Shown in pieces: positions 8,299 through 20,363 of a DNA stretch of 52,278 nt. The notes beneath the pieces were generated by a model, which saw only the letters and a program-made list of their open reading frames with translations, did no database searches and was not told the DNA's origin. The position numbers and the translations under genes were made by a program. The DNA is from an uncultured Eubacteriales bacterium (lineage in GTDB: Bacteria; Bacillota; Clostridia; Oscillospirales; Oscillospiraceae), in the NCBI GenBank assembly GCA_900319275.1, contig ONNS01000030.1, positions 1 through 52,278 of the forward strand, given 5' to 3'. The first letter of the stretch is position 1; every line of letters begins with the position of its first letter.

Positions 8299-8347
8299 GA
8301 AAAATCCTCAGCATCATGTTTTCCGGTTCGCTCGCCGAAACCGCACT

Positions 8348-10030
8348 TCAGGCAGCAGCCTCCTCGTTCAGGCAGAAGCCTCGCGGCGCGGTATCCACAG
8401 CGATATAACCCTCGTTGTCCCGCGCCTCTTCCCGCAGCAGGTCGATGATCGTCAGGTTGTCGATGGGCGCCTCCGTCTCCGGCACGAGCGGCTCCTTGCC
8501 GATGAACACACTGCCCTCCAGCGTGGCGCTGTAATTGGAGGTGACGACCCGGTACAGGGTCTCTTCATCGTGGACGTCCACCTCGGTGCCATCGTCCAGG
8601 GTGATGCTGACGATCTCGATGTCCGGCTCCTCCTCGGTCCCGTGATTCAAATACTCATAGGTCAGGCCGCTCATCTGATCGCCGTAGTTTTTCTCGATAA
8701 AGCCGTTCACGATCTGCTGGGCAATTTCCGCTCCGGTCAGCTCATAGATCAGCCAGGTATTATTGAACGGCGCGATGGTGTAAACGTCGCCCACCGTGAC
8801 GATACGCTGGGTCTCCCCCTCCGGGATCGTCAGGTTCGCCCGGACGCCGCCCGTGTTGTAGAAGGCTGCCACGACGCCCTGGTCGGACGTCTCCCGCAGC
8901 ATGAGTCCTGTGAACCAGTTTCCTCCGCTGGTCTCACGGTCGCCCACATAGCCTTTTTTCTCAATGGGGGTGTCGATGTAGCCCAGCACCTCACTCATCT
9001 CGTCGCTGATCTCCTCCCAGGCGGCGTGAGAGATGGCCAGGACCGTTTCGTCCAGGTGCTCCGCGTTCTCCGGCGTGTCAAAGAGGGCCTCCTTCTCCTC
9101 GGTTATGGGCGTATACATCGGCTCTTCGATGGAAACCGTTCCATCCGCCCCGATCACGATGATCGCCGAGGCGTAGCCCTGGGCGTAGCAGTTCGCCTGG
9201 ATGTAGGGCACGCCGCTTTCCGCCACGCCGTAGATCCCGTCGTGCTTGTGTCCGCCGGTGACGAGATCCACATCCGCCGGGCTCAGCGCCTCCGCCACCT
9301 CCACCGGCATGGCATGGGCCACCACGATGGTCACGTCCGGCTGCTCCGTCTCGTTTATCTCTTTCACCAGCGCCGACAGGGCGTCCAGATCGTCGTGGAT
9401 ATCATAGGGGGCGATCTTATCGGCCATGATCGACATCGTATAGTCGGGGATGTATCCGATCAGAGCGATGCGTTTGCCCGCCTTCTCCACGATCACATAG
9501 TCCTTCGTGAAGTCCACGCGCTCCCCCGTTTCCGCGTCGTACAGGTCCGAGGCCAGGATGGGGATATCCGGGTCACCCTTGAAATCTCCGATCCCGTATG
9601 CCGGCACTGTGGCGTCAGGGTCCGCGCAGTAGGCGGTCACGCCCCAGTCAAACTCGTGGTTGCCCAGGGCCACGGCGTCATAGTCCATAGCGTCCAGCGC
9701 TGCCCGCACGGCCGCCCCGGTGGTCAGGTTGGACACTGGCATCCCCTGATAGATGTCGCCGCCGTCCACCAGCAGCACATCGTCGTAGTCCCCGGAGGCC
9801 CGGGCCTCGTTCACCACTTGGGCGATATAGGCCAGCCGGTACTGGAACGCGGCTTCGTCGCCGCCGGAGGTATTCAGCAGATAGCCGTGGATATCGCTGG
9901 TCTCAAATACCCGGATGCGGACCTCGCCGTCCTCCGCGCCGAAGGCCGTCACACCCAGCCCCAGCAGCAGTGCCGCGCAACACAGGACCGCGAGCAGCCT
10001 CGGCATGATCTGTCCCTTACGCTTCTTCAT
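8348..10030 (-). CDS. Secreted 5'-nucleotidase / 2',3'-cyclic phosphodiesterase (UshA family)
   Basis: A 560-residue exported metallophosphatase. A signal peptide (about residues 10-31) is followed by a calcineurin-like domain with SDIHG (45-49), DGGDIYQG, GNHEFDWG and VTGGHKHDG, the usual dimetal ligands. A 5_nucleotid_C domain begins at about residue 325 (GYIDTPIEKKGYVGDRETSG, FYNTGGVRANL, APFNNTWLIYELTG). It should hydrolyse extracellular nucleotides to nucleosides and phosphate. No sortase signal or C-terminal anchor is visible. It lies between two small exported proteins and fits a phosphate- or nucleoside-salvage theme together with the HAD and PAP2 genes of the island. Confidence 0.88.
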   Translation of the reverse strand: MKKRKGQIMPRLLAVLCCAALLLGLGVTAFGAEDGEVRIRVFETSDIHGYLLNTSGGDEAAFQYRLAYIAQVVNEARASGDYDDVLLVDGGDIYQGMPVSNLTTGAAVRAALDAMDYDAVALGNHEFDWGVTAYCADPDATVPAYGIGDFKGDPDIPILASDLYDAETGERVDFTKDYVIVEKAGKRIALIGYIPDYTMSIMADKIAPYDIHDDLDALSALVKEINETEQPDVTIVVAHAMPVEVAEALSPADVDLVTGGHKHDGIYGVAESGVPYIQANCYAQGYASAIIVIGADGTVSIEEPMYTPITEEKEALFDTPENAEHLDETVLAISHAAWEEISDEMSEVLGYIDTPIEKKGYVGDRETSGGNWFTGLMLRETSDQGVVAAFYNTGGVRANLTIPEGETQRIVTVGDVYTIAPFNNTWLIYELTGAEIAQQIVNGFIEKNYGDQMSGLTYEYLNHGTEEEPDIEIVSITLDDGTEVDVHDEETLYRVVTSNYSATLEGSVFIGKEPLVPETEAPIDNLTIIDLLREEARDNEGYIAVDTAPRGFCLNEEAAA

Positions 10031-10065
10031 ACGGTAACTCTCTCCATTTCGATATGCTGCTGTTC

Positions 10066-10473
10066 TCAGCCGTTGCCGAACTCCGCGATCTCCCAGAAGA
10101 TGTCGGCAGAGGAAAGCCGCGTCATGACGCAGGTATAGTCATCATAGGTGTGATTGGGCTCCAGGCCGTTCCCGTGATCCTCGCCGTCAGTCTCAAAGGC
10201 GGTGGTCAGCACGATGACCTGCTCAGGCGCAAGGCCCTGGGCCTCCGCCTCCTCCTTCACGACCTTATCGCCGGCGTATCCGACCTTTTTCAAGGTGCAG
10301 CCCTCAAAGTTGGCCATGCTCTCAAATTCGGCCATGAACTGCCGGACGGCCTCGTCGTAATGATCGCTGTCGATGTACTTGGACGAGAACCCGCCCACCG
10401 AAACACCGCCGCTGCAGCCGACGAGACCCAGCAGAAGAATAAAGAATACGGTAAATGCAATGACTCTTTTCAT
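10066..10473 (-). CDS. Small lipoprotein, unknown function
   Basis: The start at 10473 is chosen because AAGGAGG precedes it; a longer upstream reading lacks a good site. The lipoprotein signal LLGLVGCSGG is followed by about 110 residues (SSKYIDSDHYDEAVRQFMAE, KVVKEEAEAQGLAPEQVIVL) with alternating helix and strand. It resembles short surface lipoproteins of Clostridia of unknown role. It is upstream of, and in the same direction as, the 5'-nucleotidase, with a 36-base gap, so the two are probably co-expressed. Confidence 0.65.
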   Translation of the reverse strand: MKRVIAFTVFFILLLGLVGCSGGVSVGGFSSKYIDSDHYDEAVRQFMAEFESMANFEGCTLKKVGYAGDKVVKEEAEAQGLAPEQVIVLTTAFETDGEDHGNGLEPNHTYDDYTCVMTRLSSADIFWEIAEFGNG

Positions 10474-10504
10474 GATGTGATCCTCCTTGATAATTAATTT
10501 GTGT

Positions 10505-10568
10505 ATTATTACTTCGGCAACTAAACAAACGCCAATAATGCACCACGGGGTGTTGCCGAAGTAATAAT
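10505..10568. repeat. 17-bp perfect inverted repeat in structured intergenic region
   Basis: attattacttcggcaac (10505-10521) and its exact complement gttgccgaagtaataat (10552-10568) are 30 bases apart. Immediately to the right is a second imperfect pair (gcggcattgaattaaat near 10609-10625 and atttaattgccgc near 10650-10667). The region is non-coding and could be a small palindromic element or an RNA hairpin upstream of the 10066-10473 gene. Confidence 0.6.
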
Positions 10569-10729
10569 TGCCATGCCTTGCGGTTGCCGCAATCGCGGCG
10601 AGCAAGGCGGCATTGAATTAAATGTTATTTATGCGGCTTTCTTTACGATTATTTAATTGCCGCATTAATAATATGCCGACACCCGACGGGAGCCGGACAA
10701 GGCTGTTGTATCCGGTTTTTCCACGGCAG

Positions 10730-10882
10730 TCATCCCGCGGTGATCGCGGCAAGATATTCATCCTTCGACATGACTGTCGTGTGGATCGGCGTAAAGATCT
10801 CCGCCAGGCCCCGGATCTCCGCCTCGGATCCCAGCCCGCGCTGTGGAATCTCTGAACGCCTGATAAAATACCTATCTTTACT
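10730..10882 (-). pseudogene. Unidentified gene remnant (C-terminal fragment)
   Basis: The minus-strand frame reads SKDRYFIRRSEIPQRGLGSE then AEIRGLAEIFTPIHTTVMSK and ends DEYLAAITAG before TGA. There is no start codon, and an in-frame stop lies just upstream. The composition is protein-like, which suggests the tail of a lost gene. I do not recognise the family. Confidence 0.3.
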
Positions 10883-10909
10883 TCACTTCCTTCTTGATCG
10901 GATTTGTTT

Positions 10910-11983
10910 TTATACTTTTTCCAGTCGTTTCCGCTCCGTCCACCTTTTGGCGATCCAGGCGGCCAGGACGGTCAGGACGATCCCGAACAGATAGATGACC
11001 GCCCAGGGAAAGACGACGCCCAGCAGATAGCAGAAGATCGAATCCACGAACCCGAGGATGCACCAGTGGATGCAATAGATCTGCTTGACATTCCGGCTCA
11101 TTGTGATGAACACGGAAAAGCGGGGCACATCCGCCTTTTTCAGCAGAAAGTGGAACGCGCCCAAGAGCGTCAGATCGATGGACAGAAGCCCCGCTGCCTC
11201 CGGAAGACTCACCGCATAATACCAGCCGTTCTTTGTCAGAAAAAGAGGACCAACGGCAGCGCTCAGGACGATGTAGAGCGCCATGACCGGACCCGCGGCG
11301 CACAGCAGTCTGCCATAAAGCCGATCCCGATCCTCCGTCCTCCGGAGGATCGCTCCGAACAGAAGCCCGGCGCCCACAAAGAAATACCAGTTAAAGAAGA
11401 CGAAGCAGGAGCATTCTTCTGTGGTCGTGATGAAATGGCCCAGGAGATAATTGGCGACATAGCTTCCCTGCACGGCAAAAGCCAGGGGCCCGCCGATCGC
11501 GGACAGGATCACGCCGATGATAAAGATATGCTTCTCCTTCAGCTTCAGCCGTTTGAAAAGCCCCGTGGCGATCAGCGCGAGCCCCGCGAAGTGGAGGATA
11601 TCCTGGACGATCAGGGCATAGACGGTCTCCGCCATGAACTCTCCCTCGATGAGTCCGTCGATGAGCGCGTAGATCCCGTAGCGGAAGAAGTTGAGGACAA
11701 ACCCGAGGACATAGAGCCGGATGCCCCGGCGGATGAGATCGGCGGGGCTGCTCTTCCGCGAGTAGACGATCCCCACGCCCATGGCAAACATAAAGGCATG
11801 GGCCACGGCCATGTAGACCCCGAAGAAGTAATCGCCGATCCAGTAGCGGACGTCCTGCTCATAACCGGGCTGATGCAATCCCAGCCGGATGACGCAGTGG
11901 CAGAGGATCATGCAGATGATCGCCAGCGCCTTCAAAAGGTCCAGCTCGTACAGGCGGGCAGGCTGTATCTCAGCATTCTTCAT
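10910..11983 (-). CDS. Multi-spanning membrane acyltransferase-like protein
   Basis: A polytopic membrane protein of 357 residues with about ten hydrophobic segments. Near the N-terminus, ARLYELDLLKALAIICMILCH has the R-x-x-x-x-D-x-x-x-x-x-I pattern and histidine of the acyltransferase-3 / heparan-alpha-glucosaminide-acetyltransferase-like families, which modify surface polysaccharides or lipids. Start 11983 gives MKNAEIQPARL; a GTG at 12016 is an alternative. It follows a precursor-like gene (12047-12316) on the same strand, so a link with the peptide cluster is possible but not shown. Confidence 0.7.
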   Translation of the reverse strand: MKNAEIQPARLYELDLLKALAIICMILCHCVIRLGLHQPGYEQDVRYWIGDYFFGVYMAVAHAFMFAMGVGIVYSRKSSPADLIRRGIRLYVLGFVLNFFRYGIYALIDGLIEGEFMAETVYALIVQDILHFAGLALIATGLFKRLKLKEKHIFIIGVILSAIGGPLAFAVQGSYVANYLLGHFITTTEECSCFVFFNWYFFVGAGLLFGAILRRTEDRDRLYGRLLCAAGPVMALYIVLSAAVGPLFLTKNGWYYAVSLPEAAGLLSIDLTLLGAFHFLLKKADVPRFSVFITMSRNVKQIYCIHWCILGFVDSIFCYLLGVVFPWAVIYLFGIVLTVLAAWIAKRWTERKRLEKV

Positions 11984-12046
11984 GTTCTGCGTACCCGCTC
12001 CTTTTGTCGAAAGCACCGTTGCTCCGTCCCGTCGATCACTTGCCCG

Positions 12047-12316
12047 TCACACAAGATCCCAATACTTATCGATGAACGCCATCACCGCCTGGGAGAAGGG
12101 CATAATGTCCAGGTCGATCATGGCATATTCAACGATGATCATAAGCGCGTCCTGCCTGGAGGTCCCCTTTCGCTTTTCCTCCCCCAGTCTGGACTTCAGC
12201 GCTTCGAAACAGGAGGCGTTTTCCAGATCCTCCAGGGTAACGTGCGAGCAGCCGGAGCCGCCGGAGACAGCGTCCAGCTGTTCCGGGCGCAGTTCGATGT
12301 TTTTTTGTTCACTCAT
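12047..12316 (-). CDS. RiPP-like precursor (P6) with double-glycine leader
   Basis: The start at 12316 is supported by AAAGGAGAAA. The 89-residue product begins MSEQKNIELRPEQLDAVSGG, the shared leader motif of this cluster, followed by a 69-residue region (SGCSHVTLEDLENASCFEAL ... IMPFSQAVMAFIDKYWDLV) with two cysteines. Unlike the other precursors the post-GG part looks helical, so it may be an accessory or a bacteriocin-like helical peptide. It lies between the PAP2 gene and the acyltransferase on the same strand. Confidence 0.65.
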   Translation of the reverse strand: MSEQKNIELRPEQLDAVSGGSGCSHVTLEDLENASCFEALKSRLGEEKRKGTSRQDALMIIVEYAMIDLDIMPFSQAVMAFIDKYWDLV

Positions 12317-12460
12317 AAGTCGTTTCTCCTTTTTCACATATTTGTGTACCGTCAATTCGGGTACAGATGGCTTGCAGGTTCAAAATCGTAAGTCCCATCC
12401 CGCCAGATATGCTTCTGTTCGTTGATTCGATGTTCGCCGTATCTCGCAGCGCCGTTTTCG

Positions 12461-13378
12461 TTATTCAGCCGATTCCGTGTCGACCGGAACCGGTGATAAT
12501 GCCGAGAATACAAACCGATAAGTCAATGCATATATCGAATATGTAATTAGTACGCCAAAACATACATCCGTCAAAAAGTGTGCATTCATATGAATCCTGT
12601 TATATCCCAAAAGAAGAATCCATATGACAGCAAAACCGAAGCCGACATATTTCCACCATTCTTTTTTATTCTTCAAAACAGTTGTAAGCATCGGCAACGC
12701 GAACATAATCGTCGCCTTCGTCATATGGCCGCTCGGCCAACTTCTGAATGAGCTCTCATCTTTCAAATATGGTGTCATTTCCCACCAATTCTTAAACTCA
12801 CTGATTGGATCATCCAAAGTAACCAGATATCTGTATCTCGGTCTGCATCCAACTACTTTTAACCATTCATTTATATATTCGCTGAACATACCGGCAATCA
12901 ATATGACCGAACCGATTGCTATTAATCGATCCGCTTCCTTATCATCAATTATTTTATAAGCGATGAAAGTGACCAAAGCAATCAGGGCAAGCCATGTTAA
13001 ACATGTTAAAGCAAGTGGAAACGCACTGCTTTCCCCTGCAACATACCCATAATCCTTACGAAGGTATTTACCGCCTGTATCCAGAAAACTGTAAAAAGTC
13101 CAAAACAGTGAGAAAACCAATACTCCGTTTGACAGCAAATGGAATCTCTTTCCTTTTCTCCTTATTCCTTTAAAAATACACACACCCGCTATTGGATACA
13201 TAAAGTGAGAAACTATATTGCCGTAGTGTTGAAAAAAATCGCCAACGGCCGTTTGGCTTGACAGAGTTTTTGATATATTGAAATCGCAAAAACTCCCTAT
13301 AATTATTCCTATAGCCAAAAACGCACAAACGGTATAAAAGTATTTTGACGGCATTCCTAAAATGCTTTTCTTTGACAT
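12461..13378 (-). CDS. PAP2-superfamily membrane phosphatase
   Basis: An integral membrane phosphatase, probably acting on lipid phosphates or pyrophosphates. Signature blocks are K-x6-RP in KVVGCRPRYRY, PSGH in SWPSGHMTKA, and R-x5-H-x3-D in YNRIHMNAHFLTD. Several hydrophobic helices surround them. The start is uncertain (13378 or 13399; neither has a strong ribosome binding site). Base composition is distinctly more AT-rich than the neighbours, with codons such as ATA, AAT and TTT frequent, which suggests a separate origin inside the island. Confidence 0.8.
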   Translation of the reverse strand: MSKKSILGMPSKYFYTVCAFLAIGIIIGSFCDFNISKTLSSQTAVGDFFQHYGNIVSHFMYPIAGVCIFKGIRRKGKRFHLLSNGVLVFSLFWTFYSFLDTGGKYLRKDYGYVAGESSAFPLALTCLTWLALIALVTFIAYKIIDDKEADRLIAIGSVILIAGMFSEYINEWLKVVGCRPRYRYLVTLDDPISEFKNWWEMTPYLKDESSFRSWPSGHMTKATIMFALPMLTTVLKNKKEWWKYVGFGFAVIWILLLGYNRIHMNAHFLTDVCFGVLITYSIYALTYRFVFSALSPVPVDTESAE

Positions 13379-13479
13379 AATATGCATCACCCGAATCATT
13401 AAATTATTAAACAGACCAAAGCATATCCTCTGCTGTTAACAGCTCTTTTCAGCAGTCATGCCGCAGTATATTTTTGTTT

Positions 13480-13700
13480 TATAACTGCCCGATACTTTTC
13501 AGCACCGCGTCCTTTCTGTCCTTCCAGCCGCCCTTGAAGTACTCGCAGGCGATCAGGTCTTTTGCAAGATAGTCCGTGGGATGGTCCCGCACCGCGATGG
13601 CCCGGCAGCCGCCGCAGCAAGCCGTCCGGTACTCTCGATCTCCGCGGGGCCTTTTGCCGCCGCAAGCTTCTTTTCAGTTCTTTTCTGTTGTTTTCCACCT
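13480..13700 (-). pseudogene. C-terminal remnant of a second SPASM radical SAM maturase
   Basis: The minus strand reads RGDREYRTACCGGCRAIAVR then TDYLAKDLIACEYFKGGWKD and ends KSIGQL. This parallels the end of the intact maturase at 15671-17143 (CRDCEYRLACGAGCRACACG, TDYLGIDEDACRFFKGGW). Two iron-sulfur cysteines of the C-x2-C-E-Y-R block are replaced by R, and everything upstream is missing. It is a relic of a duplicated maturase. Confidence 0.7.
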
Positions 13701-13707
13701 ACTTTGT

Positions 13708-14154
13708 TTATGTTCCGATGATCGGCCCGGTGATATAATCGGTCAAACGATACCCTTTACGGCAGGCCTGGCATGTGACATAGTGATTTGGGCCGCTTTC
13801 ATAGCAGTAAACGCCGCAATCCGGGCATTTGAAATCGATCGGTCCGGGAATATAGGAAATGTTCCCGATCCAACAGTTTCCGTCGGTCCCCCAGCAATCG
13901 CTGCCCGGCTCGACGGTGGCGGTGCAGCCCTCCGTCGAATAGTCCCGGACCCAAACTCCATTGCCCCATTTCTGACCGCCGCTGACGGCCTCCAGCTAGT
14001 CCAGAGATAATTCTTTTTCTGCCCGGTGGCTGCTGATCTCGTTCCAAATCTGGCCGACTTTGCTCTCATCCATGCCTACGTTTTTCAGCAGTCCGGCAAC
14101 TTCTTCTGCGCTTTGCGCCAGAAGCAGTTTGGACTTAAACTCTTCTGTCATCAT
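13708..14154 (-). pseudogene. RiPP-like precursor (P5) interrupted by an in-frame amber codon
   Basis: From ATG at 14154 (AGGA upstream) the frame reads MMTEEFKSKLLLAQSAEEVA, continues to EKELSLD, then TAG at 13996-13998, then LEAVSGG and a cysteine-rich part with WGTDGNCWIGN, CPDCGVYC and YVTCQACRKG, ending GPIIGT and TAA at 13708. The TAG sits where the other leaders have E or Q (SLD-E-LEAVSGG); a single GAG to TAG change explains it. The frame is otherwise open for 148 codons on both sides, so the mutation is recent or the stop is read through. The two C-x2-C pairs near the end look like a zinc ribbon. Confidence 0.7.
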
Positions 14155-14240
14155 TGATTCGCTGTTCCTAACGCACTCTCCTTATGTGATTGTTTTTAAA
14201 TATCCGTCATAATGATGCGTTGCTTTCTGACGGCCGCCTC

Positions 14241-14495
14241 TTACTTAACAGGCCTTTTGGCGTAGAGGTCCACATATTCCTTGGAACGATATACGCCGTC
14301 TTCCCCCAGATAATAGACAGCTCCCTTGAGCGTAGTGAACGTAGTGCCGTCTCCCTGTGAGATCAGGATCTCCGTATTCCCGTCTTCATAATAAGCAATG
14401 ACGGTTTCGCCCGCTTTTCCGGCTCCGCCGGAAACAGTGTCCAGCTCCTCGGAGGACAGGACCTTTTCTTCGTTCGTTTCAAATGCTTTTGCCAT
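14241..14495 (-). CDS. RiPP-like precursor (P4) with double-glycine leader
   Basis: An 84-residue product starting MAKAFETNEEKVLSSEELDT then VSGG, the leader motif of the cluster. The post-GG part (60 residues: AGKAGETVIAYYEDGNTEIL ... EYVDLYAKRPVK) has no cysteine and is rich in tyrosine, glycine and threonine with beta-strand character. AAAAGGAG precedes the ATG. It lies between the broken precursor P5 and the 14519-14770 fragment. Confidence 0.7.
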   Translation of the reverse strand: MAKAFETNEEKVLSSEELDTVSGGAGKAGETVIAYYEDGNTEILISQGDGTTFTTLKGAVYYLGEDGVYRSKEYVDLYAKRPVK

Positions 14496-14518
14496 GATGT
14501 TTTTTCTCCTTTTTGCTT

Positions 14519-14770
14519 TTATTTTTTTGTTTTCATCAGCGCCGGGATCAGGGCGAAGGGCTCCGCCCCTGCCAGCGCGTCAATGACTGTTTCCATGCGA
14601 TCGAGCTCTGCGCTGACCGGACCGGCCTGCTTGTCCGGCGCATCGGTGTAGTTCTCCAGCCGTCCGCCGATGTAATGCCCGTCCCGGACGCCGAGGAACA
14701 GTTTTTCCTTCTCCGGGTCAAAGCGTCCGAAGGCCGCGTACAGACCCACCGCGTCGGCGATCAGCTCGTC
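14519..14770 (-). pseudogene. Gene fragment of unknown family between precursors
   Basis: An open frame with no good start reads GAEDELIADAVGLYAAFGRF, then DPEKEKLFLGVRDGHYIGGR, LENYTDAP and a helical tail ending ALIPALMKTKK. It abuts the stop of precursor P3 in a different frame, with only a GTG inside it as a possible start (14749). The strong motif-like content suggests the C-terminal part of an enzyme or immunity-type protein whose 5' part was deleted at the junction with P3. I do not recognise the family. Confidence 0.45.
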
Positions 14771-14771
14771 C

Positions 14772-15197
14772 TCAGCGCCAGGCCTTATTGCATTCTACCA
14801 AAATATAATAACCGACCATACTGTGGTAGCATGCGTCGTTTGAGCTGCAAAAGCTGCCATCCTCCACGGTCGCAGCGCAGTTAGGGAAACCGCCGAGGTA
14901 GATATTCCGCTCGGAATACCTGACGCAGTTTTTGAGGTCGTCATCCTGATCGCCGCCGGAAACCGCTTCCAGCTCCTCCGGAGACAGCGGCTGCGTCAAA
15001 ACCTCGTCTTCCTTCTCTGCGGCGACGGCTTTGAGGTATTGCGCAAACTTGCCCTCATCCACGCCGCCCAGCTTTTCAAAGAGTTCCCTGTCGGAAATCG
15101 GTTTCTCCAGCGCCTCGGTCAGCGCCGCCTTCTGCTCGTCGGTCAGGTTTCCCAAAATGCCCATCAAATGTTCCAGTTTTTCCTCGTTCAGCATCAT
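14772..15197 (-). CDS. RiPP-like precursor (P3), Cys-rich core paralogous to P2
   Basis: 141 residues. A long helical leader (EEKLEHLMGILGNLTDEQKA ... GKFAQYLKAVAAEKEDE) ends in PLSPEELEAVSGG at about residue 82. The 59-residue core holds five cysteines and the block IYLGGFPNCAATVEDGSFCS followed by SNDAC and a final CNKAWR. Precursor P2 shares this block almost unchanged. AAGGAG lies upstream of the ATG. It directly follows P2 (22-base gap) and was probably made on one transcript with the maturase. Confidence 0.8.
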   Translation of the reverse strand: MMLNEEKLEHLMGILGNLTDEQKAALTEALEKPISDRELFEKLGGVDEGKFAQYLKAVAAEKEDEVLTQPLSPEELEAVSGGDQDDDLKNCVRYSERNIYLGGFPNCAATVEDGSFCSSNDACYHSMVGYYILVECNKAWR

Positions 15198-15218
15198 TCT
15201 TAGCTCCTTACATTCTGT

Positions 15219-15677
15219 TCAGCGCCAGGCCTTCCCGCAATCGTTCATGCCCTGATAATTGACTGCCACCTTCACACAGGCGTCATTTGTCGAACACCAG
15301 CTTCCGTCCTCCACGGTTGCCGCGCAGTTCGGGAAAGCGCCGAGATAGATGCTGCGCTTTTCCTCACGGAAACAGTTCGCCTGCTGCGTTTGAGAGCAGC
15401 TATGACCATCATTTGCAAGGGAATCATTCTTTCCCCCTCCCGCAACCGCTTCCAACTCGTCCGGAGACAGCGGCTGCGCCAAGACCTCGTCTTCCAGCTC
15501 TGCGGTGACAGCTTTCAGAAATTCCTCAAACTTTCCTTCATCCACGTCGTCCAGCTTCTCAAAGAGTTCCTTCTCACGGATCGGACCGCTCAGTGCTTCG
15601 GTCAGAAATGCCCTCTGTCCCTCGGTCAGTTCACCCAGAATCGCCATAAGCTGCTCCAGCTTCTCCTTGTTCAGCAT
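15219..15677 (-). CDS. RiPP-like precursor (P2), Cys-rich core
   Basis: 152 residues. The leader (NKEKLEQLMAILGELTEGQR ... ELEDEVLAQPLSPDELEAVAGG overall) is homologous to that of P3 and ends in a double glycine at about residue 80. The core has six cysteines and the block IYLGAFPNCAATVEDGSWCS then TNDAC, ending CGKAWR. Its ATG overlaps the last codons of the radical SAM gene by seven bases and has its own GGGAGG, so translation is probably coupled to the maturase. This is the strongest candidate substrate of that enzyme. Confidence 0.82.
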   Translation of the reverse strand: MLNKEKLEQLMAILGELTEGQRAFLTEALSGPIREKELFEKLDDVDEGKFEEFLKAVTAELEDEVLAQPLSPDELEAVAGGGKNDSLANDGHSCSQTQQANCFREEKRSIYLGAFPNCAATVEDGSWCSTNDACVKVAVNYQGMNDCGKAWR

Positions 15678-17143
15678 GTTTCCATCCTCCCTGTATGATT
15701 TGTATTCTCCACAGCGGCTATGCCGCTGTCTGGTTCTGTGTCCGGAGCGGGCGGAAAGCTATCCTTGTAGCGCTCGATCAGCGCCTGCGCCCTTTCGTAC
15801 CAGCCGCCTTTGAAAAAGCGACAGGCATCTTCGTCGATGCCGAGGTAGTCCGTGCCTGTCTCTCCGCAGGCGCAGGCCCGGCAGCCCGCGCCGCAGGCGA
15901 GGCGGTATTCGCAGTCCCGGCATTTTTCGTTATGGTCGATGCAGTCGCCCATCTTTACGAGGCACATGTCCCGATAGTGGGAATCCGACAGGATCTCGGA
16001 AAGCGGCTTCTCCAGCGCGGATTCAAACATGGGGTCGATGGCCGTGCCGCCCAGCGTCATGCAGGGCAGGATCTTCCCCGTGGGGGAGATGTACATGCCG
16101 TTCTTCACCGCGCCGCAGGCGAAGGCCCGGTTGCCGCCCTCCGCGCCGGAAAACTTCTGATAGGGGATCATAATCCGGCGCGTCTCTTTGTTGAAGTCGA
16201 TGAAGCCGCAGAACTGCGCCGAGACGGGCATACCGTCCGCCACGTACTGCGGCAGATAGGCTTCGATCGCCTCGAACGCCTCATCCTGCGAGATGAAGTG
16301 CTCTGACTCATTTTTCCAGCGTCCCGTGGGAGAAGCAATGTTCATCTTGACGTGGGACACCCCCTCGGCGGCCAGCAGGTCGATGCTATCCTTCAATACG
16401 CCGATGTTGTGACGGTGAAGGCACATGGATGTGCTGGTCTGAAAGCCACGCTCGTGCAGCAGCCGAAAGGCCCGGATCACCGCCTTCTCCGCGCCATCCA
16501 CGCCGCGCAGCCAGTCGTGCCAGCCCGCGCCGTCGTAGCTGAGATGGAAAGCAGGGTGCATCCTGCGCTTCTCCAGCTCGTCCAGCAGATGCCCGTCCAC
16601 CAACTCGCCGTTGGTGTACAGAGTCTCCAGCACGAGGCCCCGATCCGCGATCTCGTCCAGGATGTCGTAAAACCGGGGGTGCACCAGCGCCTCGCCGCCA
16701 GTCAGCGACACACAGCGGATCCCGCATTCCACCAGACCGTCCAGAATGCGGAGGATCTGCTCCATCGTCAGGTCCTCGCCCCTGTAGTCCGGCGCGGACA
16801 TGAAGCAGTGGCGGCAGTTGTAGTTGCACCGTCCCGTGATCGACCACTGCACGCTGTTCTTGTACATGGCGGGATAGCTTTTGTATGCCTGTGACGGCGC
16901 AAGCGTCCGGGTACCGTCGCTGGGAACGGCAATGCCCCGCTCGATGAGCTTCTCCAGCAGCTTTTTCTGGGAGTCTGTCAGGCTTTCCGCTTCGATATCG
17001 TGTTTTCCGTCGAGCCGATACACCAGGCGGTAATCCTCCCGGTCGAAAAAGTCCGCAAAGCGAGGGTTGGGATAGCGCAGAGCGAAGGGAAGCCCCTTCC
17101 ACCCGCACAGTTCAAATCCGTTCTGTAAGATATAGTAAGCCAT
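15671..17143 (-). CDS. Radical SAM/SPASM peptide maturase
   Basis: 490 residues. The radical SAM cluster motif is C-x3-C-x2-C at Cys106/110/113 (GRCNYNCRHCF), followed by SLTGGEALVHP (SAM-binding GGE). The C-terminal SPASM region (about 340-455) has CGAVKNGMYISPTGKILPC, DHNEKCRDCEYRLACGAGCR and DEDACRFFKGGW, enough cysteines for two auxiliary iron-sulfur clusters. The N-terminal 90 residues resemble a PqqD/RRE-type recognition region only loosely. SPASM enzymes of this layout install thioether or carbon-carbon links in RiPP precursors. It sits between precursor P1 (13-base gap) and P2 (overlap), which makes them the likely substrates. Confidence 0.9.
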   Translation of the reverse strand: MAYYILQNGFELCGWKGLPFALRYPNPRFADFFDREDYRLVYRLDGKHDIEAESLTDSQKKLLEKLIERGIAVPSDGTRTLAPSQAYKSYPAMYKNSVQWSITGRCNYNCRHCFMSAPDYRGEDLTMEQILRILDGLVECGIRCVSLTGGEALVHPRFYDILDEIADRGLVLETLYTNGELVDGHLLDELEKRRMHPAFHLSYDGAGWHDWLRGVDGAEKAVIRAFRLLHERGFQTSTSMCLHRHNIGVLKDSIDLLAAEGVSHVKMNIASPTGRWKNESEHFISQDEAFEAIEAYLPQYVADGMPVSAQFCGFIDFNKETRRIMIPYQKFSGAEGGNRAFACGAVKNGMYISPTGKILPCMTLGGTAIDPMFESALEKPLSEILSDSHYRDMCLVKMGDCIDHNEKCRDCEYRLACGAGCRACACGETGTDYLGIDEDACRFFKGGWYERAQALIERYKDSFPPAPDTEPDSGIAAVENTNHTGRMETC

Positions 17144-17156
17144 TTGTTCTTCCTCT

Positions 17157-17444
17157 TCACTGCTCCGGGAACCCGTCCAGGGAGCCGAATTCCTCGATCC
17201 ACACGAACTTTTCCCACTCTTTCTGGTTCAAAAACGCCCTGGCAACCGCATAATGATGCTCACGTCCGGCGTCGCTGTTCATGGCGAGCTGATAGGTTTC
17301 TTCGCCGACACAGTGTCTGAAGAAATCAAGCGACTCTTGCTTATACTGAAATCCCGGCCTGTAAACGCCGAGGGCACCGGTACCGCCGCTGACCGATTCC
17401 AGCTGATCCGGGCTTAATGAGTGTACTTGTTCGTGAACTGCCAT
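17157..17444 (-). CDS. RiPP-like precursor (P1), first gene of the peptide operon
   Basis: 95 residues starting MAVHEQVHSLSPDQLESVSGG in overall form, the cluster's leader motif. The 74-residue post-GG part (TGALGVYRPGFQYKQESLDF ... FVWIEEFGSLDGFPEQ) has a single cysteine and is charged and aromatic. AAAAGGAG precedes the ATG. Its stop is 13 bases from the radical SAM start, so the two are co-translated. The intergenic space upstream ends in the terminator of the regulatory operon, so P1 must have its own promoter, which I could not place. Confidence 0.75.
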   Translation of the reverse strand: MAVHEQVHSLSPDQLESVSGGTGALGVYRPGFQYKQESLDFFRHCVGEETYQLAMNSDAGREHHYAVARAFLNQKEWEKFVWIEEFGSLDGFPEQ

Positions 17445-17550
17445 TGTCGTTCTCCTTTTTCCCCGTGTTTCTGCTGTTATGTAAACCTTCCTGCTTTCTA
17501 CTCTTCATTTTTTATTATTTTAGCAAACCCTGTCCTAAGGATGTCCAAAG

Positions 17551-17592
17551 AAAAACCGCCCTTTCTCAAAAAACTTTGAAAAAGGGCGGTAT
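17551..17592 (-). terminator. Intrinsic terminator of the regulatory operon
   Basis: accgcccttt (17555-17564) pairs with aaagggcggt (17581-17590), with an inner tcaaa/tttga pair. On the minus strand it is followed by TTTTTC. It separates the response-regulator gene from the peptide genes. Confidence 0.8.
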
Positions 17593-17613
17593 TATTGTAT
17601 GTTGTTTCAGAAT

Positions 17614-18414
17614 CTATCGATTCGTTGTTCTCCAGTATAGGATCGCCTCTGTCATGCTGGCCCAGGAATAGGAGCTCATATACTCTCCCCGATAGGAGTT
17701 GATCACATCGCTGTCGCCGGAAAAGAAAAGGTAGGCATCGCAGATAAATGTGTCCGTCCTGACGCGAAGAACACCCTTTTCCATCTCCATGATTTCTGAG
17801 ATGCCGTATTCCTGCAATGTTTCCCGGAGAGACCGGATGTAAACGTCCAATTGCTTCTGCATCCGTCGGTCATATTGGAGATCCTCCCATACAGCGGCGA
17901 AAATTTCAGCTCGTGTGACGCCCGAGCCCTGCTTATCAACAAGATAGGCAAGAATCTCCTTGGCTTTTGCCAGCTTAAAGCTGATTGGCCTGTCGTCCAC
18001 AAAGACATCAAATGCTCCAAAGGTTTTGATATGGATACGGGCAGACATTGACGGATGCTTCTCCCTGCTTGCATAGGCTATCTCTGCCGCCAGTTTTTCC
18101 TGAGACACCGGCTTGAGCAGATACCCTGTCGGATGCACCGCGTAAGCGTCGAAAGCGTACTCTTTGTACGCGGTCAGGAACAGGATGGCAGTCTGCGGAT
18201 GGGCTTCCTTGATCCGGGCGGCAAGGGTGATGCCGTCGATCTCCGGCATGTTGATATCCAGGATCGCCACGTCCGCCGGATGGCTCCTGCAATCGTCCAG
18301 CGCTTCCTGCGCGCTCGTAAACCCCTTCACTTCGTCGGCCCGGGGCAGCAGTCGGCACTGTCCGACAGTATATTCCATCGCCAGCGGTTCATCGTCCACA
18401 CAGATGATTCTCAT
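17614..18414 (-). CDS. Response regulator, REC plus winged-helix (BTAD-like) output
   Basis: 266 residues from the start at 18414, which overlaps the kinase stop in ATGA. The receiver domain has D7/D8 (CVDDEP), the phospho-acceptor D53 (ILDINMPEIDG), T/S at LFLTAY and K101 (LLKPVS). After about residue 125 the output region (IHIKTFGAFDVFVDDRPISF, KAKEILAYLVDKQGSGVTRA) has the winged-helix pattern seen in SARP/BTAD-type regulators rather than LytTR. It is partnered with the adjacent kinase and probably controls the peptide cluster that lies directly downstream. Confidence 0.85.
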   Translation of the reverse strand: MRIICVDDEPLAMEYTVGQCRLLPRADEVKGFTSAQEALDDCRSHPADVAILDINMPEIDGITLAARIKEAHPQTAILFLTAYKEYAFDAYAVHPTGYLLKPVSQEKLAAEIAYASREKHPSMSARIHIKTFGAFDVFVDDRPISFKLAKAKEILAYLVDKQGSGVTRAEIFAAVWEDLQYDRRMQKQLDVYIRSLRETLQEYGISEIMEMEKGVLRVRTDTFICDAYLFFSGDSDVINSYRGEYMSSYSWASMTEAILYWRTTNR

Positions 18415-19688
18415 TTCCGCTGTCCCCCTTTCTCTTTTCCGGGTACGTCGGGAATACGGATCGTGACGCTGGTGCCTTCCCCGACGGCGCTTTTCAGGAT
18501 CATCGTCCCGCCGCACATCTGTTCCACGCGTCTTTTCACGTTTTCCAATCCAATGTGCGTCTCCTCAATTGTTCTCTTTTGTTCGGGGTCGAACCCTGCG
18601 CCGTTATCTTCAATCGTGACCCGATGCGCACCGGCTTCGCGGAACGTGGAAACAGTCACCAGGCCGTCCTTCCGGCTGCGCACGCCGTGGCGAATCGCGT
18701 TTTCCACCAGCGGTTGGATCGTCAGCGCGGGAATCGTAAAACTTTCATCATCGATCCGGTATTCCACACGGACGTTTGGGAATCGCAGCATTTCGATCTC
18801 TGCATACAGCCGGGTGTGCTCCAATTCTTTGGTGATCGGGATCAAATCGGTCTGGCCCAGCGACTCCAGGTTTTGCCGCAGATAGGTGCTGAAATTCTCC
18901 AGCGTCCGGTCCGCAAGCGGCGGGTCCTTGGCATACAAAGCTCGGATGGTGTTGAGGGCGTTGAACAAAAAGTGGGGCTGGATCTGCGTCATCATGATCT
19001 GAATACGCTGCGCCGCCATCAGGTCTTTTTCGTGCTCGCGGACGAACTGCAGGTGCAGCCAGATGTAATAGAACACGCTGCCGATTACGATCGCCATGGT
19101 CAGAAATGAAATCGGTTGTTGCGCCATTCCCACGCTCATGTCCAAAGCGACGGAAGCAGCGATGATCAGGGCCACAGAGACCGGGATCAACTGTTCCAGT
19201 CTCCGCGTCTCCCGGTAACGGAGGATCGTCCGTATTATGAGCTCAAGAAGCAGGAGCCCGCTGATCAGAAAGCAAGTAAAATACAGCGGTCCCCGCAGGG
19301 CGGCAAAGTCAAATTCCCGGATCTCAAAGCAGAGCTTTGTATAGGGAGAGGTGAAATAAAGCAATGCGTTGATGCCCGCCAGCGTCCAATGGAGCCACAT
19401 TTTCCCCTCTGGCCAGATGATATAAAGAAACAGGATCATAATCACTGGCCGTACGGAGTAGCCATAGGCGGACAGGATGTTTTTCAGCGCCAGATTGGCG
19501 TGATGAACGAACAGCGAATTCTCTCCCAGATTCTGCCCGATTAGGCTGAGACACAGCACGACGATGAAGAGCATGATCCGCCGCTGTTTCTGCTGGATAT
19601 AAGGATCGATCACCACTGTGAACCCAAGCCCAAGCAGCAAGAACAGCATTGGGAAAAGTATGGCAAGCGTTCCTAAATCCATCGTCAT
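18411..19688 (-). CDS. LytS/AlgZ-type sensor histidine kinase
   Basis: 425 residues. Six or seven hydrophobic helices fill residues 1-220 with no large extracellular loop, which suits sensing of a membrane or small peptide signal. A HisKA_7TM/His_kinase motif follows: QIQPHFLFNALNTI with phospho-acceptor His239. The ATPase domain has IQPLVENAIRHG (N box) and EDNGAGFD (G1). It overlaps the upstream HTH gene and the downstream response regulator by four bases each, a translationally coupled three-gene unit. Confidence 0.88.
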   Translation of the reverse strand: MTMDLGTLAILFPMLFLLLGLGFTVVIDPYIQQKQRRIMLFIVVLCLSLIGQNLGENSLFVHHANLALKNILSAYGYSVRPVIMILFLYIIWPEGKMWLHWTLAGINALLYFTSPYTKLCFEIREFDFAALRGPLYFTCFLISGLLLLELIIRTILRYRETRRLEQLIPVSVALIIAASVALDMSVGMAQQPISFLTMAIVIGSVFYYIWLHLQFVREHEKDLMAAQRIQIMMTQIQPHFLFNALNTIRALYAKDPPLADRTLENFSTYLRQNLESLGQTDLIPITKELEHTRLYAEIEMLRFPNVRVEYRIDDESFTIPALTIQPLVENAIRHGVRSRKDGLVTVSTFREAGAHRVTIEDNGAGFDPEQKRTIEETHIGLENVKRRVEQMCGGTMILKSAVGEGTSVTIRIPDVPGKEKGGQRK

Positions 19689-19900
19689 AAGTGAACATCC
19701 TCCATACCTTCCACGCCTTGTTTTACTTTCTTTCGGGTTTGTCGGGGATCGCCGGGCTTAACAGCGTCCGCAGGAATTGCCCAGGAACGTCCGAACCGCT
19801 CCACGCCGGGAATGCGTCCCTCCGTGACATACTGATTGACGCTGCGCCCGGAGACGCCCCATTGATACGATGCCTCCCGGACGGAAAGATAGCCCTTCAT
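19685..19900 (-). CDS. Small HTH (MerR/excisionase-like) DNA-binding protein
   Basis: A 71-residue protein with an N-terminal winged-helix of the excisionase/MerR kind: YLSVREASYQWGVSGRSVNQ then YVTEGRIPGVERFGRSWAIP, followed by a basic tail. Such proteins are DNA-bending excisionases or small regulators. The four-base overlap with the kinase gene argues for a regulatory role in this operon, while the position 300 bases from the integrase relic would suit an old excisionase. Both readings are open. Confidence 0.7.
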   Translation of the reverse strand: MKGYLSVREASYQWGVSGRSVNQYVTEGRIPGVERFGRSWAIPADAVKPGDPRQTRKKVKQGVEGMEDVHL

Positions 19901-19988
19901 GTTTAAACCTCGCAGATAGATTATTACAATAAGACATTATACATTATATATGGATATTCGAAGCTTTTCAAGAGAATAGGCGCGGATA

Positions 19989-20363
19989 TCACCGCTCCCA
20001 CCCACGATCCTTTTGCTTTTTTCTTTCCGGCTGCCTCGCCAGATTGATCCGTTCCTTCTCCCGTTCTTTGCGTCTCATCCGTTCTATGATGGATCGGGGT
20101 TCTTCCTCACCCAGCGTTTTCTCCACTTCCCGCTTTGCGCCGATCATCGTCCAGAAGTCATACTTATCCCCGTAAGTAGCCTGCACCCGACTTTCAGCGG
20201 ATGCTTCCTTCTGAGGACGGATCTCAAGCTGCGCCATAGCAAGCTCATCGGGGTCGAAGCCTACAGCCTGGGCTTTCAGTCCGTTGTATTTCGCAAGGGC
20301 GGCGTTCAGCTCTGCGGTGTACTTCTGCTCCTGCTGCTCCAGCTTTGCAAGATTGGCCTCCAT
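19989..20363 (-). pseudogene. C-terminal fragment of a conjugative-element protein (relaxase-like tail)
   Basis: From about 20363 the minus strand reads MEANLAKLEQQEQKYTAELN, a coiled coil, then DELAMAQLEIRPQKEASAES, GDKYDFWTMIGAKREVEKTL and a basic tail ending KKQKDRGWER. This resembles the end of large mobilisation or YodL/DUF4316-type proteins on Clostridia elements, though I cannot name the family surely. Protein-like sequence stops exactly at 20363, where the integrase fragment starts on the other strand. Confidence 0.5.

Follow-up and report, generated by a model that had tools for sequence, protein, structure and literature searches.

A 52,278-nucleotide contig of an uncultured Eubacteriales bacterium (ONNS01000030.1; the whole contig, C96 in a genome assembled into 161 contigs totalling 3.04 Mb, is the window analyzed here) carries on its minus strand six small genes, P1 to P6, with a common double-glycine (GG) leader, together with a gene for a radical S-adenosylmethionine (rSAM) enzyme of the SPASM type. 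We read this region, with a probability of about 0.7, as a variable maturase block among the cargo of a general GG-leader exporter, in which a unit for a ribosomally synthesized and post-translationally modified peptide (RiPP) stands together with GG-tagged small proteins, so that what the six genes have in common seems to be a tag for export and not a chemistry. Under this model, the SPASM enzyme would act on P2 and P3, whose cores read C-x2-T-x6-C-x3-D-x1-2-C, and would most likely join Cys to Asp within C-x3-D through a thioether, the bond that PapB makes in freyrasin; alongside it, P5 and a maturase of its own would have formed a second unit, since decayed. P1, P4 and probably P6 would be small proteins that use the GG leader as an export tag only, and all GG cargo would be cut after GG and exported by a C39-peptidase ATP-binding cassette (ABC) transporter whose genes lie on other contigs of the genome (C70 and possibly also C24). 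An initial annotation of the sequence had proposed an rSAM-modified peptide system, which our comparisons support, and a single multi-substrate maturase for all six genes, which they do not.

Results

Six leaders share one motif

All six leaders fit L(-12)-x4-L(-7)-[DE]-x-V(-4)-[SA]-G-G, with motifs starting at positions 17417 (P1), 15470 (P2), 14987 (P3), 14459 (P4), 14010 (P5) and 12292 (P6). This strict pattern, which we composed after these six genes had been seen, occurs six times in the window and in none of 60 dinucleotide shuffles, and a looser pattern occurs seven times against a shuffle mean of 0.47 and a maximum of 2; on these counts we rejected a chance origin of the motif. The hydrophobic residues at -12, -7 and -4 and the GG at -2/-1, present in all six, are those expected of GG leaders cut by C39 transporters, as had been proposed, and lie close to the recognition positions that the consulted portion of PMC10885120 describes for peptidase-containing ABC transporters. 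None of the six proteins matched the Nif11 leader models (TIGR03798, PF07862) at E up to 1. The six open frames first listed all carry the motif, but P5 is not open, a stop codon falling within its leader motif. Their post-GG parts, described as being of four or more kinds, fall into four ({P2, P3, P5}, P1, P4 and P6), because P2 and P3 are paralogues with 61% identity and P5 shares their cysteine core.

P2 and P3 belong with one clade of maturases

The maturase gene (15671..17143, minus strand; 490 aa), which we identified by Pfam models, alignment and tree, exceeds the cut-offs for radical SAM (PF04055, 74 bits) and SPASM (PF13186, 26.7 bits) domains, and its CX3CX2C triplet and seven further cysteines, the full SPASM set, are invariant in 18 of 18 aligned rows. 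Orthologues occur at 94% (locus L019), 89% (L020) and 84% (L021) identity, and aligned relatives at 27-43% identity come, where the record is named, from Bacillota and Synergistota. Solved structures yielded 10 sequences, general SPASM or rSAM enzymes with SkfB the best, and none of eight phage records spans 80% of the query. Among the 25 best of 70 families, no curated maturase model passed and no characterised ranthipeptide maturase matched, all lying far below cut-off. At two loci, L070 (5636-6646) and L107 (5257-6267), a 336-residue protein without known family lies directly upstream of the maturase; no model matches the L070 copy.

P2 (15219..15677, minus strand; 152 aa, core CAATVEDGSWCSTNDAC), the probable cognate substrate, overlaps the maturase gene by 7 bases, and P1 lies 13 bases from that gene on the other side (17144-17156); an overlap and the 13-base distance had been reported first. 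P3 (14772..15197, minus strand; 141 aa, core CAATVEDGSFCSSNDAC) follows. At L019 and L021 a P2-type gene likewise overlaps the end of the maturase gene, and at L020 the first 117 bases of a P2-type leader precede the contig end. P2, P3 and the broken P5 have in common the core C-x2-T-x6-C-x3-D-x1-2-C; across 11 aligned precursors the common leader end and GG are followed by this core and then by Y and C, with residues C118, T121, C128, D132, C134, Y141 and C147 of P2 invariant.

Comparison across loci links this core to one maturase clade. In 149 sequences (965,358 bases, many overlapping) the core motif, in which C-x3-D holds by construction of the search pattern, was found in 18 distinct open reading frames (ORFs) and the reversed motif in none, and 16 of the 18 have GG upstream. 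These ORFs lie in the window (2) and at L072 (6), L070 (3), L107 (2), L021 (2), L071 (1), L108 (1) and L022 (1), every one of which has a maturase from the same clade as that of the window. In a maturase tree of 21 rows, which omits L025, L026, L027, L037, L074 and the second copy of the G057 locus (L081), a single change accounts for the motif label, where shuffled labels need 7.3 on average and none of 500 shuffles reaches so few, and the 11 rows with motif neighbours form one side of a single branch with support of 94/97, present in 96% of 200 bootstrap trees.

Searches that started from the precursors gave a similar pairing. Among 400 genomes of the family, five match at E up to 1e-5, of which four (G000, G004, G148 and G267) are strong, with a best match over 100 bits, and each stands beside a maturase; the fifth, G057, scores 27-32 bits, mostly over the leader. 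Within the genus, 10 of 61 genomes give a match at E up to 0.001, with three strong cases (the genome itself, G346 and G308), all beside a maturase, and seven weak ones (19-33 bits, G340 included). Weak matches at 19-27 bits were considered as C-x3-D precursors and not counted, being other GG-leader proteins as far as they were read. G148 alone has seven profile matches, six of which fit the core pattern. Locus L072 (2-3113) holds several C-x3-D precursors in a row next to a single maturase, in effect a naturally occurring library of cores, and L021 (5230-5694) encodes a C-x3-D precursor whose leader ends in FSAEE in place of GG and which adjoins an open maturase gene. The CTB family bacteriocin model NF038167 reached 16-18 bits for P2, P3, P4 and P6 (cut-off 32), Pfam gave no match to P1, P2 or P6 at E up to 1, and its lantibiotic or bacteriocin matches to P3 and P4 were sub-threshold. 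P2 and P3 look like the two intact substrates of the neighbouring radical enzyme.

The substrate motif also points to a possible chemistry. In the available text of PMC9413430, PapB joins Cys to Asp in Cys-x3-Asp (CX3D), accepts many spacings and is tolerant of core sequence; PapA contains six such motifs, and a short PapA substrate ends in CSANDA. P2 reads CSTNDA and P3 CSSNDA, and because this stretch and the C-x3-D spacing resemble the freyrasin substrate, we propose a Cys-Asp thioether in both, which the resemblance suggests. The window shares with freyrasin (PapA/PapB, a ranthipeptide) an rSAM/SPASM enzyme beside its precursor and the Cys-x3-Asp acceptor motif (PMC9413430). It differs in having one C-x3-D per core rather than PapA's six, and in a long core with further invariant Cys, Thr and Tyr; with regard to ranthipeptides more broadly, the families that P2 and P3 match at E up to 1 include no SCIFF precursor model. 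The enzyme might instead modify P2 and P3 through another bond, whether an alpha-carbon thioether of the sactipeptide type, a carbon-carbon crosslink or a link at another core cysteine. We treat this as a serious but less favored possibility, since the enzyme passes no curated maturase model and the invariant Thr and additional invariant cysteines are possible sites, yet C-x3-D is kept in 11 of 11 aligned precursors while most else varies.

P1 and P4 occur apart from the maturase

P1 (17157..17444, minus strand; 95 aa), a GG-leader protein with a conserved post-GG part, has no fixed maturase partner. Six of 395 other genomes match it, all from the same genus and five over most of its length; the sixth, G336, a match of 24 residues within a 617-residue frame, was dropped from the count. 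Neither a maturase relative nor a sequence fitting the general radical SAM pattern occurs in any of the five P1 neighbourhoods fetched; L103 and L105 are cut short by the end of a contig, L103 as little as 0.9 kb past P1. The G395 copy of P1 matches without difference over 94 residues and stands at a site without the block: window positions 17131-20134 and 10064-10478 match G395 at 93.7 and 93.3%, and these flanks lie 37 bases apart there and 6,652 in the window. The stretch between them (10479..17130) contains the maturase, P2 to P6, a PAP2 phosphatase and an acyltransferase gene (PF01757), with P1 outside it; the stretch may have been gained here or lost in G395. A second stretch, 8328-10063, with a 5'-nucleotidase-type gene (PF02872), is likewise missing at this place in G395. 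The window's matches to L019 and L020 also stop at 17157, the end of P1, and gene content upstream of the orthologous maturases differs at L019, L020 and L021, so that the adjacency of P1 and the maturase is not conserved. As an acyltransferase-like gene directly follows P1 in G347, this gene is not tied to the maturase block. In G321 a P1 homologue that lacks the GG leader end is separated from an exporter pair by about 3 kb, in which GG proteins with LysM and CW_7 domains are encoded. G267, of another genus, has a homologue whose leader is intact, located 0.5 kb upstream of such a pair on its contig C1; we met it by reading that locus rather than by the P1 search.

P4 (14241..14495, minus strand; 84 aa) is a further GG-leader protein with relatives elsewhere. 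The tail after its GG leader matches within frames of 192-511 residues in 16 other genomes, all of the same genus, at varying positions and in up to three copies per protein. Nine of these ORFs were read, of which seven begin with what looks like a lipoprotein-type signal and two have no visible start. Five larger relatives were scanned, one of which matches a choline-binding repeat there (L142, PF01473, 25.6 bits, cut-off 20.5). P1 and P4, at least, look like small secreted proteins that use the same tag as P2 and P3. P6 (12047..12316, minus strand; 89 aa, its start best placed at the ATG at 12316) matched nothing in 395 other genomes.

These observations weigh on the initial annotation's view that one leader-guided, substrate-tolerant maturase modifies all six proteins to give several products. 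The leader motif is common to all six, PapB tolerates varied cores (PMC9413430), and dissimilar GG proteins near one rSAM gene recur, for example on the genome's own contig C70 and on C32 of G004. We nevertheless regard this view as improbable: P1 homologues stand without an rSAM neighbour in all five neighbourhoods read, the P4 domain occurs in larger proteins, GG leaders sit on ordinary domains at exporter loci where no rSAM gene was found, and the C-x3-D core motif is absent from P1, P4 and P6. Of the two outcomes that the initial annotation had named as refuting it, homologues lacking any radical SAM neighbour and post-GG regions belonging to ordinary protein families, both were observed, the first for P1 and the second for P4. 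The tie between precursors and maturase that a multi-substrate system would call for thus fails for P1 and P4 and holds for the P2/P3/P5 kind except in G340.

A candidate exporter and its wider cargo

Export had been expected to depend on another locus, and a candidate is now found on contig C70 of the same genome, which encodes a C39-peptidase ABC transporter (TIGR03796, 911.5 bits, cut-off 853.3) and its partner (TIGR03797, 727.8 bits, cut-off 709.4). GG-leader genes, a full DUF7005 gene, a rhodanese-like gene, two Nif11 precursors over cut-off and a maturase with 34-35% identity to that of the window follow this pair. A second pair on contig C24 is cut by the contig end, and the pair also occurs beside the orthologous rSAM gene at L020. 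The earlier statement that the window has no transporter or protease holds in that none of the 11 exporter places listed for this genome (of 38 matches) lies on this contig; the whole window was not scanned for transporters or proteases.

In related genomes, GG leaders precede LysM, CW_7, acyl-carrier and half cold-shock domains, all over cut-off. In a survey of 16 genomes, 13 of them chosen for a maturase match, 12 exporter places passed cut-off, four with a maturase relative in the fetched stretch (7-20 kb) and eight without, and three of those eight have GG proteins with LysM or CW_7 domains. GG leaders on LysM or tandem CW_7 domains lie at L131 (7080-7698), L132 (12753-13073), L133 (12641-13594), L106 (8948-9148 and 11462-11785), L091 (925-1251) and L093 (1252-1584), the last two being specifically CW_7 proteins; at L131, L132, L133 and L106 they adjoin C39 exporter pairs, and the search for a radical SAM gene in those stretches found none. 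At L090 (424-639) a GG leader precedes the first half of a cold-shock domain (PF00313, 50 bits). An acyl carrier protein at L108 (3955-4233; PF00550 over cut-off) also bears a GG leader, its first 16 residues matching the CCRG-2 leader model at 29.1 bits (cut-off 24), and what we take to be the usual serine attachment position reads R.

Two known types of GG system bear comparison. The Nif11/NHLP peptides with NHLM exporters (TIGR03796, TIGR03797, TIGR03798) share with our loci both exporter parts, on C70 and beside the L020 rSAM gene, and the two Nif11 precursors on C70, but the six window proteins lack a Nif11 leader match. The GG peptides of peptidase-containing ABC transporters, such as the pneumococcal Rtg peptides, share the leader positions and GG as set out in the accessible part of PMC10885120, and in the Rtg system one transporter serves a set of GG peptides (PMC7018657, likewise consulted in part); they differ in that GG leaders in relatives of the window genome also precede folded domains (LysM, CW_7, acyl carrier, half cold-shock).

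A probable decayed second unit and neighbouring genes

On the minus strand, the locus runs from a histidine kinase (PF06580) and response regulator (PF00072) through P1, the maturase, P2 and P3 to a DUF7005 remnant, P4, the interrupted P5, a second-maturase remnant, the PAP2 phosphatase, P6 and the acyltransferase. The two remnants were absent from the initial annotation. P5 (13707..14154, minus strand) belongs to the C-x3-D precursors and has a tail that resembles a zinc ribbon in matches below threshold. An in-frame TAG at 13996-13998 interrupts it within its leader motif; intact P5 relatives exist. We rejected recoding of this TAG, because TAG ends two of 32 checked genes of the window and the adjacent maturase copy is itself a remnant. 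That copy, the C-terminal remnant at 13491..13643 (minus strand), shares 91% of its residues with the G308 maturase, 72% with those of G004 and G267 and 50% with the window's own. Because these closest maturases adjoin P5-like precursors, P5 and the remnant were probably once a pair, now both broken.

The DUF7005 C-terminal remnant (14519..14779, minus strand), from which the HExxH part is gone, scores 26.9 bits against a cut-off of 27 and was matched again in a second search; we attribute the part of that second match which extends back into the P3 stretch to chance and therefore place the start of the remnant near 14779. Other DUF7005 proteins lie near GG-leader genes at L016 (7611-8483, on the genome's own contig C70), L070 (1946-2845), L107 (1866-2732) and L075 (8036-8911); no adjoining GG gene was seen for those of L076 and L080. 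The proteins of the first four loci keep HExxH and then D-E...D, with H175, E176, H179, D195, E196 and D200 invariant in five rows (one partial), a residue pattern like that of a zinc peptidase or HEXXH hydroxylase. Assignment to the known alpha-ketoglutarate HEXXH hydroxylases, compared through the available part of PMC12636437, was rejected, NCBIfam listing no family at E up to 0.1; a distant kinship may exist. Solved structures gave no match at E up to 1, and a literature search found no paper on DUF7005.

The PAP2-family membrane phosphatase (12461..13399, minus strand), identified by Pfam, is a neighbour in which the Pfam scan gave no sign of membership in the peptide system. With the P5 stop and both remnants lying within 1.3 kb, in a region that varies strongly among relatives, the whole could be a decaying graveyard of cargo genes from which nothing is made. 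We think this unlikely, as the maturase, P2 and P3 are open and the first two are 94% and 89% identical to their L019 orthologues.

Discussion

Our preferred reading, a maturase block for P2 and P3 set among tagged export cargo, must be weighed against several observations that count against it. The 11 aligned precursors were picked from beside maturases, L020 was labelled in the tree by its precursor leader alone, its core lying beyond the contig end, and, because most loci compared were fetched via the maturase, adjacency counts are biased outside the precursor-based searches of 61 and 400 genomes, which are exempt. Two of the 18 motif ORFs have no GG upstream, and in G340 a stretch resembling C-x3-D follows GG (33 bits, without a clear start) at a place where 18 kb of sequence contain no maturase relative. 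A fulvocin C-related bacteriocin model reaches 21.8 bits on P2 (cut-off 35). The likeness to PapB lies in the substrate motif and not in any demonstrated kinship of the enzyme sequences. On the cargo side, no domain model matched P1 or P6, P4 itself passes none and only one of its five scanned relatives does, and that P1, P4 and P6 stay unmodified is something we infer.

SPASM maturases, C39 exporters and GG peptides are already known. Within the literature searched, which mostly left out subscription papers and in which no text query covered the core motif or the CW_7, acyl-carrier and cold-shock domains, we found no report of the C-x2-T-x6-C-x3-D group or of GG leaders on LysM, CW_7, acyl-carrier or cold-shock domains. 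Genome mining naturally reads a gene with a GG leader as a substrate whenever a radical SAM enzyme is its neighbour, and each post-GG part as a core; this locus suggests a pitfall, as an export tag and a maturation substrate look alike until neighbourhoods are compared across relatives. With near-identical leader ends on two likely substrates and on two likely non-substrates, it also offers a test set for asking how a maturase discriminates between them.

At even odds, we suggest that these uncultured Bacillota possess a general route of small-protein secretion, in which a GG leader has repeatedly been put on ordinary domains (LysM, CW_7, acyl-carrier, cold-shock, the P4 domain known from lipoprotein-like proteins, and zinc-ribbon-like tails) and one C39 ABC exporter serves a changing cargo. 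Radical SAM units would then be exchangeable modules that modify only the cargo with C-x2-T-x6-C-x3-D cores, a thioether peptide group not met in the literature searched.

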